From positions 27,277-91,276 of the forward strand of contig JAIPGO010000003.1 of NCBI GenBank assembly GCA_021736135.1: a DNA stretch of 64,000 bases, in the 5' to 3' direction. Of the stretch, positions 7,264 through 64,000 are shown one piece after another. Origin of the DNA: Candidatus Cloacimonadota bacterium (GTDB taxonomy: Bacteria > Cloacimonadota > Cloacimonadia > Cloacimonadales > TCS61). Below the pieces are notes generated by a model. That model saw only the letters and a program-made list of their open reading frames with translations, had not been told where the DNA came from and ran no database searches. Position 1 is the first letter of the stretch; each line of letters starts with the position of its first letter. The position numbers and the translations under genes were made by a program.

Positions 7264-10200
7264 TCAATTCTTTTTAACTTTCTCAAAGATGCTGTAAATA
7301 ACTGGCACGAGTACCAGCGTAATGAAGGTTGAGCTTAAAAGACCGCCAATCACAACTCTCGCCATAGGAGCCTGGGTTTCACCGCCTTCACCAAATCCGA
7401 AGGATAAGGGTAAAAGCCCTAATGAGGTTGTAAAAGTAGTCATCAGGATCGGTCTTAACCTTCTGGTGCCGGCAGCAATGATCGCTTCAGTGAGTTTTAA
7501 TCCTTTTGTTCTGCGCAGACGGTTCGTGTAATCCACCAGCAGAATAGCATTATTCACCACTATTCCCGCCAGCATGATGCAGCCGATGAGTGCCTGAATA
7601 CTGAAAACCGTTTTCGTGAGCAGCATGGTGATCACAATTCCCACCAGCGCCATGGGAATGGAAAATAGAATAACAAAAGGATCACGGAAAGACTCAAATT
7701 GTCCTGCCATGACCAGATATACTAAAAGCACTGCTAAAATGAAGCCAAAGATCAATTCCCGGAAAGATTTTTGCTGTTCCTCATAATCGCCGCCCATCAT
7801 GATGGAAAAATCTTTCGGTACGGGCACTTCCGGCAGTTTATCCCTGATATCGGAAATTACGGAACCCATATCTCTATCTGTGAAATTAGCGGTAACATAG
7901 ATAACTCTTTCCTGGTCTTTGCGTTCCAACTGTTTGGGTCCTTCCTGCGCACCGGCAGTAACCACGTTTCTGAGAATGACCGGTTCATTACGGTTATTTA
8001 ATACCATCAGGTCGAGTATTTTATCCAGACTGTTACGGTCTTCTTCCGGAAGACGGATCAATATTCTATATTGTTTACCGCCTTCCCGATAATAGGAAAC
8101 CTGCGAACCACTGACAGCAGTCTGCAGAATATCACCAATATCCGAAATGGAAAGTCCCAGGTCGGCAGCTTTTTGTCTATCTACCCGAATCACCTGTTCG
8201 GGCATACCTTCTTCGCGGCTGATCCGGGTATCCGTGATGCCATCCACGGATTTAACGATTTTCTCCACTTCTATAGCGAGTTTATTGGCTATTTCCAGAT
8301 CGTGCCCACGCACTTCCAGGCTGATATTATCATCCGAGCTGCCCATTCTCATGATCCATAAGCCACCAGCGGGCCGGGTAGTAATTTTCACGCCCGGTAT
8401 ATTTTGCAGGGCTTTTCTCAGGTCATCGGCAATTTCCCGGCTGCTTCTGTTCCTTTTACTTTTACCGGTTAAAATTACTTGAATTGAAGAACTGTTGCCA
8501 CCGGAACCGCGCCAGCCGGAACCACCAATGCGTGACAGCAGGGATTCCATTTCCGGAACGGTATTTTTAATTATCTCTTCCACTTCTGCCGTCAGTGTAT
8601 CCATCACGGCAAGTTTTGTTCCCAAAGCCATTTCCAGGCTTACGCGCACTTCACCTTCATCCGTCTCCGGCATTAATTCCACCCCGATAAACCTCACTAA
8701 AATGACTGCCAGCGCAAAAAGTGTTATTACGCTCAGAATAACTGACCTGCGATGCACCAGTGCCCATTTGAGTATATTGCCATACCGGGTTTCAATTTTA
8801 ATGAAGATGTTCTCGCTGCGGCGGAATATCTTATCCTGCCAGCCATTACTGCGTGCGGCGTTCGTTTTCAAAAACTGCGATGCCAGCATCGGCACCAGGG
8901 TGAGTGATACGATCAAAGAACACAGCAGCGAAAAACTGACCACAATTGCCATCTGCTGGAACATGATCCCGGACATCCCGCGCACGAATACCACGGGCAG
9001 AAATACCACGATGGTCGTCAGCACGCTTGCCACTATCGCTGTCCAGACTTCATCCGTACCCAGCAGCGCGCTTTCTTTGCTCGAATAGCCCTGTTCCGTG
9101 TGCCGGAATATATTTTCCAGTACGACGATGGAACTATCCATCAGCATACCGATTCCCAGAGCCAGTCCCCCAAAGGTCATAATGTTCAGCGTTAAGCCGT
9201 TAAAATATAACAGCCCGAAAGTTGCGATTATAGAGACAGGAATTGCGGTAGTGATTATGGCAGTACTCGTAACGTTCCGTAGAAAGAGAAATAGTATAAT
9301 AATTGCCAGCAATCCGCCGATCAGAATAGTATAGCTCATATTATTGATGGAATTCTTGATATATTTGGAAGAATCGATCAGAGGTACGATCTGAATACCG
9401 GGATAGTCACGCCGGATTTTAGTCAGTTCCCCATTAATGGTATCTGCTATTTTCACGGTATTAGCACCGGATTGTTTACTGATCGAAAGCCGCAGTCCCG
9501 GTTCCAGGTTTATGCGGTTAATGGATGTAATCTCTTGGTGACTATCTTCCACTTCGGCAATATCGGAAACCAGTATGGGCTGGTCATTCCTGGTAGCAAT
9601 CACCGTGTTTTTTATTTCCAGCAGCGAGGAAAATTCCCCTTGCGTTCGCAGCAGTATATCATGCTCATTCTGGGGATACACGCCTGCCGGAATATTTCTA
9701 TTCTCAGACCGCAAAGCAGAGAGTACGTTGTCAATAGAAAGCGCATAAGCCTCCAGCTTACGCGCAGAGGGATATATGTGAATTTCCCGGCTTAAACCAC
9801 CCTGCACATCTACCGAGGCCACTCCCGGAATGCGTTCCAGCCTGTATTTCAACTGGTCTTCCACTAACTGCCTCAGATCGATGGGACGCATATTGCTGGA
9901 TATTCCCAGCACCAGAACCGGAAATGCTGAAAGATCAAATTTTCTGATGGAAGGTCTGTCCACATCATCGGGTAACCTGGATAAAATACGGTCAATGCGG
10001 TCTCGCAGATCGTTAGCCGCCACGTCAAGATCAGTTCCCCATTTAAAGGAAAGCCGCACGCTGCTTCTGCCTTCCGAGGAAGTGGACGTGATCTCTTCCA
10101 CTCCCTGCACGGCAGCAATTGCCTCTTCGATGGGACGTGTTATCTGGTCTTCTATTTCCCGCGGGCCCACATTGGAATAGTTGGTGGAAATCGATAATCT

Positions 10201-57738: not shown

Positions 57739-59112
57739 TTAAAAACCGGTATTAAAAGTAGCTGCTTTTACTTTTTGAAGATAGAAAACAGCCTGGTTGT
57801 TTTGAGTTTTCAGAGGGATAGATGAGGATGACAAGCCCTCTGCGTAACTTGCGACAAGATTGGCTGTAATGTTATCGAGGATGTTTACTTCGCCGTTTTG
57901 CAGAGTGATGCAGAAGCGACCGTTTTCATCCGGCTGAATACTGGTAGTAAAATAATTAAAACAGGCTGAATCAGAAGCTGTGATTTCGTAATAATGTACA
58001 CTTTCACGGATAGTCATAATGGGAGATTGATGAAGCAAAACAAACTTTTCGGCTGGAAGGGCAGTTTCGATGGCACTGAAAGAAGCGCTTTGCAGAAATG
58101 CCGTCCAGGCAGGCTGAGGAGGTAAATCGCCGGCATAAATAGTGCCGAATATCCCGGTATCATTACTGTAAAAACGGTATAATGTCAGATATTCTTCAGC
58201 ATTCATTGCAGAAAGCAGGAATGTGTTATATAAACCGGCAACGGGATAGGTGATGCTGGCATCCTGGGCATGGAAGAAGTTTACATCCTGTAGATCAGTT
58301 GGCTCTATAAAGCCTTCTTTGCCTAAGAACGCAGCAATATCTAAAAGCACATTTGCCGATTTACCACCGCGACCGCCAGTGGCAACGGCAAAGCCTTCCT
58401 GCAAAAAGGGATGCGTATATAAGAGAATATCCTGCAAAGCATAATTGATCATAATGTGACTTATTTCGTGAAAATGACAGGGAAACGAGGAAATTACGGC
58501 ATCTTCAGCTAAAATCCCCATTCCCCGGCATTGGTAACCGGTAATGCGGGCAATTTCATCCGGAGACTCGCAGCGGTAATAGCGTATTTTCTGGTTTTGC
58601 AATAAGGTAAGCCGCTGAGGTGAGATTTTCAGTAATTCCGCCAGATGAGCACAATAGGCATCGAGAATAACGAGTTGCTCCGGTTGATATTTACTGTTAT
58701 CCTGCACCCGGTATTCGATGAATTTTCCCTGATATTGTGTCCAGTCCTGAGTCTGTAATTGATAGGGACTGATCAGCATACCGTCCTGGAGTGCAAAATG
58801 CACAGGACGTTTGATTCCAGGATGCTGCAGAGTGATGAGAGTAGCTTTCCCGGTTTCAGTTTCAGATATAGATAGTGCTGTCCTTGCCCGGGAAATCACA
58901 TTTCTTTCAGCTTGAGTAAAACCATACCCTATAAGGGATTTATCAGGAAATGCCACATAACAAGTTTCCAGGCGGTTACAATAATTCCGGTAAGCGGGAT
59001 CAATGATGGAAGCTAAGCTGTCAGGTTTATCAACAGCCCATTCAATAACCTGATTAGAGTTTACATCTGCCAGACAGCAAAGAAGCACAATTAATATTAT
59101 GATTTTATTCAT
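57739..59112 (-). CDS. Secreted putative zinc metallopeptidase (HExxH)
   Basis: 457 aa from the ATG at 59112; the ORF-track start is a TTG five codons earlier. The ATG places a clean signal peptide (MNKIIILIVLLCCLADVNS) at the N-terminus. The centre has CHFHEISHIMINYAL (HExxH, near residue 213) and, 20 residues on, HPFLQEGFAVATGG. The Glu there fits the third zinc ligand of gluzincin-type peptidases (HExxH-x20-E). The C-terminal 130 residues are beta-rich. No named peptidase family recognised. Follows the small lipoprotein gene by 25 bases, so they are probably an operon. Confidence 0.8.
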   Translation of the reverse strand: MNKIIILIVLLCCLADVNSNQVIEWAVDKPDSLASIIDPAYRNYCNRLETCYVAFPDKSLIGYGFTQAERNVISRARTALSISETETGKATLITLQHPGIKRPVHFALQDGMLISPYQLQTQDWTQYQGKFIEYRVQDNSKYQPEQLVILDAYCAHLAELLKISPQRLTLLQNQKIRYYRCESPDEIARITGYQCRGMGILAEDAVISSFPCHFHEISHIMINYALQDILLYTHPFLQEGFAVATGGRGGKSANVLLDIAAFLGKEGFIEPTDLQDVNFFHAQDASITYPVAGLYNTFLLSAMNAEEYLTLYRFYSNDTGIFGTIYAGDLPPQPAWTAFLQSASFSAIETALPAEKFVLLHQSPIMTIRESVHYYEITASDSACFNYFTTSIQPDENGRFCITLQNGEVNILDNITANLVASYAEGLSSSSIPLKTQNNQAVFYLQKVKAATFNTGF

Positions 59113-59137
59113 AAATTTAAGGGACAAGTGGAACTAA

Positions 59138-60785: not shown

Positions 60786-60882
60786 ACCTTGCGTATGATC
60801 GCAGACCTTCGCAATGGTTGACTATGTGAATTCCGAGTTTTCTGAGACGACCATTGCGGAGGTCTGCGACCATTCGCAAGGT
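60786..60882. repeat. 97-bp imperfect inverted repeat, 34-bp arms
   Basis: ACCTTGCGTATGATCGCAGA at the left end; arms 60786-60819 and 60849-60882 pair at 30 of 34 positions, with a 29-base loop. Foldback or MITE-like, with no ORF inside. Confidence 0.85.
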
Positions 60883-61079
60883 CTCACCCGCAAATCAGTT
60901 TCATTTCTTCTTTTCGCGTTTTACGCACCTTTCGCGGTTGATAATCTATTCTTTTTGGTTTCGGTTTATCTGAGTCAGGTCATAGCAGCATTTCAGCAAA
61001 ATGGTTTCTATAATTTTTCAGGTGTGCACTTCACTTGCGAAATATACTAACGAGTTATGTCTGGTGAGATACGTTTTAT

Positions 61080-61107
61080 TTGCAGAAGATGGTATTAACG
61101 TTATAAT
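61080..61107 (+). promoter_or_regulatory. Sigma-70 promoter of the DOMON cluster
   Basis: TTGCAG (61080-61085), 16-base spacer, TATAAT (61102-61107), 36 bases before the first ATG. ATTAACGTTATAATG... and TATTAACT flank the -10. Confidence 0.65.
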
Positions 61108-61143
61108 GTCTATTAACTAAATAAACGGTGAAGGGGATTTTGC

Positions 61144-61377
61144 ATGAAAAAACAAAAGGTTCTCAAGGTTCTGAATGTTTTTCTAATTTTAGCTTTTTTG
61201 ACAACGGTGTCAGCTTTGATCTTTTACAAATTTATTCCTTCCGGAATACAGGGCAGTGAGTTTTTGTATGAGATGCACGAATTAGCCGGAATGATTTTCG
61301 CTATCCTGGGCATAACGCATTTCATCCTGAATTTCAACTGGGTACGATCAATGTATTTTAAAAAGAAGAAAAAGTAG
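61144..61377 (+). CDS. Small two-helix membrane protein, DUF4405-like
   Basis: 77 aa. Two membrane helices (VLNVFLILAFLTTVSALIFY and LAGMIFAILGITHFILNF) with His residues in MHELAG and ITHF placed like the haem ligands of small b-type cytochrome domains, ending in a basic KKKKK tail. This matches the short DUF4405-type pattern. First gene of the four-gene cluster; possible haem-containing inner-membrane electron carrier (inference). Confidence 0.7.
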   Translation: MKKQKVLKVLNVFLILAFLTTVSALIFYKFIPSGIQGSEFLYEMHELAGMIFAILGITHFILNFNWVRSMYFKKKKK

Positions 61378-61409
61378 AAACTAAAATTTTCAAGATAAAA
61401 GGAGAAATT

Positions 61410-61745
61410 ATGAAGTACTTATTAATTCTCGTATTACTCGCTGGAAGCTCTTTGTTATTAGCGCATCCGGCTTCGGAAGTTACTCTGGCATTCGACCAGG
61501 AAACATCAATCCTGACGGTGAATTTCGCACACAATGTTAACGACGTAGATAAACACTTTATCTTCGAAATCCTGGTTTATCTGAATGGTGAACAGATCAT
61601 TGAGCAATTACTCCAGAAGCAGGATAATACAGAAACAGGCACAGTGATCTATAAAATAGTGGAAGCAAAAAAGGGTGATAAGATCAAAGTTCGTACAAAC
61701 TGCAATAAAACAGGAAAGAAAGCTGCTGAAATTGTGATCGAATAA
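61410..61745 (+). CDS. Small exported Ig-like protein
   Basis: 111 aa. Signal peptide MKYLLILVLLAGSSLLLAHP. The mature part is a compact beta protein: SEVTLAFDQETSILTVNFAH, DKHFIFEILVYLNGEQI, KKGDKIKVRTNCNKTGKKAAEI. The spacing of H...KHF.xEI.VYLNG is reminiscent of superoxide-reductase-like Ig folds, but no complete metal site is visible. Ribosome binding site AAGGAGAAATT. Ten bases before the barrel gene. Confidence 0.75.
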   Translation: MKYLLILVLLAGSSLLLAHPASEVTLAFDQETSILTVNFAHNVNDVDKHFIFEILVYLNGEQIIEQLLQKQDNTETGTVIYKIVEAKKGDKIKVRTNCNKTGKKAAEIVIE

Positions 61746-61755
61746 AGGAGAGAAG

Positions 61756-62517
61756 ATGCGATTTAAATTGATCATTGTTCTCTTATTTATCACATCCACT
61801 CTCATTGCTTATGATTTTAGTATGATCAATCTGATCAATCCCTCCGGCTTGAAAGCTAAGCAGGGTGAATTGATGATCCGGCATCGGTTTTATGGTGATA
61901 TCACTGATGAGCCGCTCAATAATTTCCTGGGAATGGATGCAGGGGCTAATATAAACCTGAGTGCCCGTTACCAGTTTTACCGTAAAGCAGAAGTGCTGCT
62001 ATCTTATTCCAGACGCCAAAGCGAAAAAACCTGCGGACTGGCATATCGTCTTGATATTGATGATGTTCCGGTTTATGGGCAGCTGGGAGTGAATTATTTT
62101 TCTTATGAAGAGCTTAGCCAGTCTGAAACGACCAGACACAATTTCTTTTACTATCTTTCGCTGCAGAATGAGGAACTCTTCGACCGGATCGTAGCAACGC
62201 TTAATGCTGCTTATGACGGTTATAACGAAAGATTTGTGCCCGGATTCGGGTTCAGTGTAAAGCTCATTGATAGCGTGAGTCTGCTGGGAGAATACTATCC
62301 CGTATTAGACCGCAATTCTGCCGGCAAGGAACTGACTCAATATATCGGAGAAGAAGATGCATTTGCCATTGGCTTGAAATTTGACACTTACGGTCATCAA
62401 TTCACTTTTCTGCTCTCCAATACTGATGATGTAGGGCTCAGGAGAGTAAGTCTGGGTGCTGATAAAGATTCATATTTAAAACTGGGTTTCAATATTCAGC
62501 GACGTATGGAATATTAG
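61756..62517 (+). CDS. DUF5777-like outer-membrane beta-barrel protein
   Basis: 253 aa. Signal peptide (MRFKLIIVLLFITSTLIAYD), then strands typical of this family: KAKQGELMIRHRFYGDITDE, DAGANINLSARYQFYRKAEV, VLLSYSRRQSEKTCGLAYRL and a late GHQFTFLLSNTDD, a conserved feature of DUF5777. Ends with aromatic residues (RRMEY). Probably an outer-membrane barrel working with the surrounding periplasmic proteins. AAAGGAGAGAAG precedes the ATG. Confidence 0.85.
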   Translation: MRFKLIIVLLFITSTLIAYDFSMINLINPSGLKAKQGELMIRHRFYGDITDEPLNNFLGMDAGANINLSARYQFYRKAEVLLSYSRRQSEKTCGLAYRLDIDDVPVYGQLGVNYFSYEELSQSETTRHNFFYYLSLQNEELFDRIVATLNAAYDGYNERFVPGFGFSVKLIDSVSLLGEYYPVLDRNSAGKELTQYIGEEDAFAIGLKFDTYGHQFTFLLSNTDDVGLRRVSLGADKDSYLKLGFNIQRRMEY

Positions 62518-62526
62518 GAGGATTAA

Positions 62527-64000
62527 ATGAAAACCAGCTTAAATATATTTTCTCTTCTGATGGCAGTGCTGCTCTTTTTTGGCTGCAATACGGTTAGAGA
62601 CGAGATCATGGGGCATGATGATATAATTCCGCCTGATTCTATGGGATATGTAAGTGTTACCGGAGCAGGAGTTACCTTAAAATATAAAGTAGAAGATACG
62701 GATCTGCACTGCATTTTAAGTGCAAATACTTCCGGCTGGATCAGTGTGGGCTTCAATCCGACTTCCATGATGCGGGATGCCGATTTTATTATCGGATATG
62801 TGAGCAGTGGAATCGGCTATATGCGTGATGACTGGGGAATTTCCAATACAACCCACGTCTCAGATATAAGCCTGGGTGGTTCAGATAATATTACTTTGAT
62901 ATCGGCTTCCGAAGCCGGCGGAGTTTCCGAACTGGAATTCAAGATCCCTCTAAATTCCGGAGACCAGTATGATCAGGTGATGCAGATCGATCAAACATAT
63001 CCAATAATTTTAGCACGCGGCAACGGTGACAGCTTTGATTCGATGCATGCAGCTACCGGCTATGCCAGTATCACACTTTCAGAAACCGGAGGCGGCGGAA
63101 CCGGTCACACGTCTGCTCTGCCGGATACATCTCTATATCTATCGCTGGAAGCAAGCGGTATGAAGTTTTACTGGCTGGTTGATCCCGATACCATACATTG
63201 CGTGGTTACAGCTCCCACGTCAGGCTGGATAGGCATCGGTTTCGATCCGGAAAACGTGATGCAGGGTGCTAATTTCATCATTGCATACGTTGAAAGTGAC
63301 TCAGTAGGATATTTCCGTGATGACTGGGGAACTTCTCCTTCCATGCATGTTTCGGATGTGAGTAACGGAGGAACGGAAGATCTGTATCATCTGGGCGGGC
63401 TGGAAGCGAACGGGGAATCCATAATTTACTTTTCCATACCTTTAAATAGCGGAGATGCTTTTGATAAAACTCTGCTCTGGGATGAAAGCTATCCCATTAT
63501 ACTCGCTTATGGAGCAGATGACAGTTTTTCTTCTATGCATACTGCTGCCGATTTCTCATCATTTACGGTTGATAACACGACCGGCGGTGGTGGCGGCGGT
63601 GGCGGAAATACCAATGCATTTCCTGATACAACACAATATATTTCTCTGCAGGCAAATGACATGAGGTTCTACTGGCTGGTTGATCTTGATACCATTCACG
63701 TGGTGGTTTCAGCACCCACATCAGGCTGGGTAGGGATCGGCTTTGATCCGGAGAACGTCATGGAAGGTGCCAATTTCATCATCGGATACGTGGAAAGCGA
63801 TTCCATCGGCTATCTGCGGGACGACTGGGGTAACACACCCTCAGTTCATACTGCTGATGTAAATAATGGCGGTACTGAGGATATTTATTTCACAGGAGGT
63901 CTGGAAACAGGAGGTGAAACCTTCATCTACTTTTCCATGCCTTTAAATAGTGGAGATGCTTACGATAAAACGCTGCTCTGGGATGAAAGCTATCCCATAA
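62527..64000 (+). CDS. Multi-DOMON lipoprotein, C-terminus beyond window
   Basis: Absent from the ORF track because it runs off the edge; open for 491 codons. ATG has AGGAGGATTAA upstream and is 9 bases after the barrel gene. Signal with lipobox LLFFGC (Cys near 20). Three DOMON domains follow. Each has the pattern SGWIxxGFxPxxMMxGADFI, then GYxRDDWG, then HxxDxxxGG, then YPIILAxG, separated by Gly-rich linkers (GGGGGGGGN before the third). DOMON domains bind haem or sugar; Met and His positions (DxxxMHxA) are conserved across repeats. Candidate extracytoplasmic haem/electron-transfer protein. Confidence 0.88.
   Translation, partial: MKTSLNIFSLLMAVLLFFGCNTVRDEIMGHDDIIPPDSMGYVSVTGAGVTLKYKVEDTDLHCILSANTSGWISVGFNPTSMMRDADFIIGYVSSGIGYMRDDWGISNTTHVSDISLGGSDNITLISASEAGGVSELEFKIPLNSGDQYDQVMQIDQTYPIILARGNGDSFDSMHAATGYASITLSETGGGGTGHTSALPDTSLYLSLEASGMKFYWLVDPDTIHCVVTAPTSGWIGIGFDPENVMQGANFIIAYVESDSVGYFRDDWGTSPSMHVSDVSNGGTEDLYHLGGLEANGESIIYFSIPLNSGDAFDKTLLWDESYPIILAYGADDSFSSMHTAADFSSFTVDNTTGGGGGGGGNTNAFPDTTQYISLQANDMRFYWLVDLDTIHVVVSAPTSGWVGIGFDPENVMEGANFIIGYVESDSIGYLRDDWGNTPSVHTADVNNGGTEDIYFTGGLETGGETFIYFSMPLNSGDAYDKTLLWDESYPI

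Follow-up and report, generated by a model that had tools for sequence, protein, structure and literature searches.

Outer-membrane conduits of the MtrCAB type are built on a barrel of 26 to 28 strands that sheathes a multihaem cytochrome c. Proteins that hold haem b non-covalently are known from several settings: in vitro binding has been shown for one DUF4405 protein and for the dimeric FezC (PMC11334425), and a Met/His pair coordinates haem b in the DOMON domain of cellobiose dehydrogenase and is predicted to do the same in plant HYP1, sugar binding being also possible for DOMON domains (PMC10784544). Plant and animal CYBDOM ferric reductases combine a cytochrome b561 with DOMON (PMC10784544). 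Superoxide reductases (SORs) carry an iron site of four His and one Cys, with the signature HX5H and CX2H (PMC3116461). Here we analysed 64,000 nucleotides of Candidatus Cloacimonadota bacterium (assembly GCA_021736135.1, contig JAIPGO010000003.1, positions 27,277 to 91,276 of the forward strand; hereafter the window), which end in four genes that recall each of these systems and differ from all of them.

The four open reading frames lie on the plus strand with intergenic gaps of 32, 10 and 9 nt (Table 1), and the positions and tight spacing given in the first-pass annotation were correct. Position 64000 is the end of the contig (C66) and cuts gene 4. Another contig of the same genome (G000:C85) opens with the same 129 bases that close the window, an exact overlap of which the window and C85 each have a single copy. 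Joining gene 4 to G000:C85:130-1217 produced an uninterrupted protein of 853 aa with five DOMON domains, the fourth and fifth of which are on C85, and this joined protein aligned end-to-end with a single-contig ortholog at 78% identity over 841 aa. Because the next gene on C85 is convergent, the operon stops at gene 4. A c-type cytochrome gene, which had been expected as a possibility past position 64000, was not found in the completed operon. The 'clear promoter' previously assigned to the cluster fared less well. It corresponds to one candidate in Table 1, the region contained 6 sigma-70-like matches against 3.1 (sd 1.7) in shuffled sequences, which is not clearly above expectation, the stretch around the candidate was not conserved in the upstream DNA of orthologs, and a search for an upstream regulatory site shared across orthologs found none. 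Between the DUF488 gene and the operon, the window contains a 38-nt inverted repeat with 87% complementarity and a 21-nt loop (60786-60882), of which no second copy was found within the window. Further upstream, on the minus strand (57739-59127), is a 462-aa exported protein without a Pfam match that contains a HEISH (HExxH) motif and is possibly an unknown metallopeptidase.

Table 1. Features of the four-gene cluster, in coordinates of the window.
Feature	Position	Strand	Evidence
Candidate sigma-70-type promoter, TTTGCA-17-TATAAT	61079..61107	+	10/12 consensus matches
Gene 1, 77-aa two-helix DUF4405-like mini-cytochrome b candidate	61144..61377	+	Pfam; invariant H45/H59
Gene 2 (SORL), exported superoxide-reductase-fold protein	61410..61745	+	Alignment, AlphaFold, Foldseek, profile match
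Gene 2 signal peptide, predicted cleavage A18/H19	61410..61463	+	A18-H19 invariant, leader otherwise variable
Gene 3, DUF5777 outer-membrane beta-barrel, 253 aa, 12 strands	61756..62517	+	Pfam, AlphaFold, Foldseek
Gene 4, DOMON lipoprotein (Cys20), cut by contig end	62527..64000 (open)	+	Pfam, overlap, ortholog
Gene 4, DOMON domain 1 (aa 44-180)	62656..63066	+	Profile envelope; Met and His conserved
Gene 4, DOMON domain 2 (aa 207-344)	63145..63558	+	Profile envelope; Met and His conserved
Gene 4, DOMON domain 3 (aa 374-511), split at contig end	63646..64000	+	Profile envelope, joined ORF

Gene 1 just missed the cut-off of the Pfam family DUF4405 (PF14358; 24.9 bits, E 3e-5, cut-off 26.7 bits). 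Two of its histidines, H45 and H59, are invariant in 9 orthologs and are candidate transmembrane ligands of haem b, which bears out the earlier description of a two-helix membrane protein with candidate haem histidines. The two invariant transmembrane histidines are a trait shared with the DUF4405 and FezC cytochromes, and the small size of the protein suggests a homodimer as in FezC (PMC11334425). In contrast to those systems, no adjoining ApbE, flavinylated partner or ferrosome genes were seen next to gene 1, and its partner is an SOR-like protein.

That partner, the product of gene 2, is the most novel part of the cluster, apparently an exported relative of SORs with an altered candidate metal site, and it is this likeness that the first-pass annotation overlooked. 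The protein had been described as small, exported and Ig-like. The predicted export stands, and Ig-like is more aptly given as a superoxide-reductase/SoxZ fold, on the Foldseek matches. No Pfam family scored above its cut-off, the score against the superoxide reductase family (PF01880) being 15.2 bits compared with a cut-off of 22.2; matches to 4HBT, poxvirus G3 and other Pfam families were weak and inconsistent and were dismissed. The AlphaFold model (pLDDT 92) retrieved SoxZ and several SORs as best matches of equal rank, with E values of 7.9e-4 to 1.1e-3 for the SORs and a TM score, by target, of 0.71 to 4d7p. General Ig and FN3 folds trailed these matches by little, and the fold match by itself is therefore no proof of kinship with SORs. 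Searches of PDB sequences with the gene 2, DOMON and barrel profiles returned no significant relative, so that gene 2 was placed by fold comparison and not by PDB sequence search. A profile-profile comparison with 22 SORs, mostly taken from Cloacimonadota genomes, gave P 1.4e-4 with H49 and C98 in register with the SOR ligands, and its score exceeded that of 400/400 column shuffles.

In a 28-sequence alignment, A18, H19, A21, H41, V43, H49, Q71, C98, K100 and G102 of gene 2 were invariant. The A18-H19 pair is kept in 28/28 homologs whereas the remainder of the leader varies, and because this pair sits where the signal peptide is expected to end, the mature protein very probably starts with His19, as judged from the predicted cleavage. 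The resemblance to SOR/desulfoferrodoxin (PF01880) thus consists of a shared fold and of His-His-Cys positions in register. The differences are export, the His at the predicted mature N-terminus, and the spacing and number of the putative ligands: gene 2 has H41-x7-H49 in place of H-x5-H and C98-x2-T101 in place of CX2H, and the position of the fourth SOR histidine is occupied in the 28 sequences by T, S, G, V, I, M, A, R or F, but never by His. By the published signature gene 2 is therefore not a superoxide reductase. Neither is it a mere replacement of one, because most genomes that carry gene 2 have an ordinary SOR as well. Two diverged gene 2 paralogs occur elsewhere in the same genome (G000:C44:28704-29027 and G000:C88:73479-73820).

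The product of gene 3 matched DUF5777 (PF19089) with 63.3 bits against a cut-off of 23.1, and its AlphaFold model (pLDDT 86) has 12 strands, in agreement with the outer-membrane barrel proposed before. The nearest Foldseek matches were KdgM, FapF and a designed 12-strand barrel. We found no match to a TonB-dependent receptor, DUF5777 being the only family given by Pfam, and no paper on DUF5777 was found in the literature. In contrast to TonB-dependent haem uptake, the small barrel is thus not a plugged receptor. The part of gene 4 within the window scored 174 bits with Pfam DOMON (PF03351; cut-off 32.7) over three stretches, so the lipoprotein with at least three DOMON domains of the first-pass annotation became one with five once the contigs were joined. 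A Met and a His, approximately 92 residues apart, are invariant in every DOMON domain that covers the position (40/40); they were equated with the known ligands through position and spacing, not structure, and so provide candidate axial ligands in all domains with coverage, the feature on which the earlier haem assignment had been made to depend. A third histidine, H70 in domain 1, is invariant as well. The number of tandem DOMON copies ranges from 1 to 5. In two further loci (L127:2385-2954 and L128:3062-3631), a lone DOMON is fused to another N-terminal domain and has no linked barrel. The combination of a membrane b cytochrome with a Met/His DOMON recalls the CYBDOM ferric reductases (PMC10784544), except that here the two are separate proteins predicted to lie in different membranes, there are five DOMON domains, and a barrel and SORL are added.

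The named relatives are all Cloacimonadota, including Ca. Stygibacter and Ca. Tenebribacter. Among 125 Cloacimonadota genomes of the class, the barrel was found in 17, DOMON in 19, gene 2 in 43 and gene 1 in 40. Every barrel genome also has DOMON (17/17, p 4e-19) and SORL (17/17, p 1e-9), and 33/40 genomes with gene 1 have SORL (p 9e-15; Fisher tests that ignore shared ancestry, in all three cases). In family f10, 22/25 SORL genomes also have gene 1 (p 2e-5, ancestry ignored), with the genes mostly unlinked. The four families, whose joint occurrence had been put forward as a check, are thus found together across the phylum, and because the genes are often unlinked, hitchhiking is a poor explanation for it. 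The gene order is gene 1, gene 2, barrel and multi-DOMON in f1; in f2 and f10 it is gene 2, barrel and DOMON, in some cases followed by a DOMON gene with a type 9 secretion tail; other genomes have the gene 1-gene 2 pair alone. SORL is often present without barrel and DOMON and may have a role of its own. In Ca. Stygibacter and Ca. Tenebribacter (L054:5182-5364 and L056:10412-10612), the first part of the barrel gene runs straight into the last part of the DOMON gene, which looks like a deletion of both gene bodies or a collapse in the assembly; genes 1 and 2 are intact there. At L056, a gene of the ChaN haem-binding family (8801-9691) lies 26 bp upstream of gene 1 and is itself downstream of genes for Rnf, rubrerythrin, superoxide reductase and ferritin.

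Members of these families were also found in other phyla. In a second phylum, 5/17 genomes encode gene 2 homologs. At two of these loci (L064 and L143), SORL adjoins a flavocytochrome that resembles ferric reductases, has NAD and FAD domains and shows a bis-haem His pattern, and the L064 locus is divergent from genes for a FUR/PerR-family protein, a peroxiredoxin (AhpC), rubrerythrin, superoxide reductase and ferritin. At two others (L141 and L142), gene 2 adjoins a DOMON lipoprotein in which the Met is kept and the C-terminal His is missing. DUF5777 barrels occur with two DOMON genes, Met/His kept, in two lineages outside Cloacimonadota (L213 and L214). At L207-L212, they are accompanied by a small cytochrome c-like lipoprotein, by YceI or by a fused cytochrome c domain, which is N-terminal to the barrel at L208 and L212; several of these cytochrome c matches were below the Pfam cut-offs, and a CxxCH or CX4CH motif was used as well. 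These clusters share with ours a barrel of the same family beside a small haem-binding lipoprotein and differ in that the haem partner in Cloacimonadota is the putatively b-type DOMON and the periplasmic partner SORL, not YceI. Of the independent indications that barrel and haem lipoprotein belong to a single unit, the DUF5777 pairings outside the phylum are the strongest.

The first-pass annotation could not see that the source of haem is a problem: the haem synthesis and cytochrome c maturation genes that we searched for were missing. Ferrochelatase, AhbD, cytochrome bd and CcmC/CcsA were absent from this genome and from all DOMON-carrying Cloacimonadota searched, while the same searches were positive in many named control genomes. 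The AhbD search matches nearly all genomes at the level of radical-SAM proteins and was counted only near its 500-bit cut-off. With genome completeness of up to 99%, an assembly gap is an unlikely cause of an absence that extends over 19 DOMON-carrying genomes. From their gene content, Cloacimonadota with the cluster thus appear unable to make haem. As the searches turned up none of the known routes to haem b or c, the haem would have to be scavenged from the surroundings, unless the domains bind something other than haem. The exceptions in the phylum, among the genomes searched, are a ferrochelatase in G103 only and a CcmC/CcsA-like gene in G033 only, either of which could be a recent gain or contamination.

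We hold with moderate confidence that the cluster is a conserved extracytoplasmic redox module whose likeliest job is the reduction of oxidants or metals. This is the best reading because gene 2 is recurrently partnered by membrane b-type cytochromes and haem lipoproteins, and the barrel by haem lipoproteins. Electrons would reach the periplasm through gene 1, as a minimal b-type cytochrome of the inner membrane that probably dimerises as FezC does, and would be accepted there by gene 2, as a secreted metalloprotein of the SOR fold whose site would consist of the N-terminal His, a Cys and two more His. Genes 3 and 4 would form an outer-membrane unit of the 12-stranded barrel and a lipoprotein with up to five Met/His haem-b DOMON domains. 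The b-type haem would be scavenged from the surroundings by cells that lack the haem-making genes searched for; being non-covalent, it needs no maturation system and could be inserted outside the cell. Electrons may be disposed of onto oxidants or metals in the envelope, e.g., superoxide, peroxide or Fe(III). A bolder version of this reading, namely a trans-envelope relay made solely of non-covalent haem b and an SOR-derived metalloprotein, in bacteria that make no haem and take it up outside, with gene 2 representing a new class of metal site, is in our view doubtful.

The main rival is haem or iron acquisition, in which the multi-DOMON lipoprotein captures haem at the surface, the barrel admits it or a breakdown product, and gene 2 is the periplasmic protein to which it binds. 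The apparent haem auxotrophy of these genomes, the haem-site pattern repeated in 1 to 5 tandem DOMON copies and the ChaN-family gene directly upstream at L056 would all suit such a function, but the barrel has only 12 strands and resembles no TonB-dependent receptor, the operon has no inner-membrane transporter (gene 1 is cytochrome-like, not a permease) and the partners found elsewhere are redox proteins, which makes acquisition unlikely. Slightly less credit goes to the proposal of the first-pass annotation, a porin-cytochrome-type conduit for extracellular electron transfer in which DOMON haem b replaces the multihaem cytochrome c. The barrel with a surface haem protein does resemble the layout of MtrCAB, gene order and predicted compartments (inner-membrane cytochrome, periplasmic protein, barrel and surface haem lipoprotein) fit, some DOMON partners have a type 9 secretion tail, and DUF5777 barrels are paired with or fused to c-type cytochrome domains elsewhere. 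However, the operon encodes no multihaem cytochrome c, a periplasmic multihaem carrier is missing, the DOMON-carrying genomes lack the maturation genes searched for (CcmC/CcsA), and a survey credits Cloacimonadota with putative conductive pili, not multihaem cytochromes (PMC7382037). As modelled, the 12-stranded barrel is unlike an MtrB-type sheath and too narrow to enclose a cytochrome, and no c-type cytochrome is encoded in the operon; the suggested path, on which electrons would travel unbroken from the inner membrane to the surface, is not supported.

Handling of copper or another metal, with gene 2 as a His-brace-like periplasmic metal chaperone acting through its N-terminal His, is improbable: the invariant A/H at the predicted cleavage site together with H41, H49 and C98 would be compatible with it, but genes for a copper pump, CopC, CueO or the like were not recognised in any neighbourhood read, and the gene partners are cytochromes. 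That the DOMON domains bind a sugar or another ligand and the cluster is a nutrient-binding surface complex seems very improbable, for although DOMON domains can bind sugars (PMC10784544), the cells appear to produce no haem and the barrel resembles the oligogalacturonate porin KdgM, the Met/His of the haem-b pattern is invariant in all domains with coverage and neither a glycosidase nor a sugar transporter was recognised next to the operons read.

The suggestion of an undescribed redox or haem module was thus a fair one, as the literature that we found describes no such system, including that on DOMON with superoxide reductase or extracellular electron transfer. The redox module is a concrete candidate for envelope redox chemistry in a little-studied phylum known mostly from metagenomes, and it introduces a relative of superoxide reductase that crosses phyla, is predicted to be exported and has an altered candidate metal site. 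It also points to DUF5777 barrels as the outer-membrane counterpart of small haem proteins, which may be b-type DOMON proteins or c-type cytochromes interchangeably, and it raises the question of why haem-binding patterns are so strictly kept in cells that are apparently unable to make haem.
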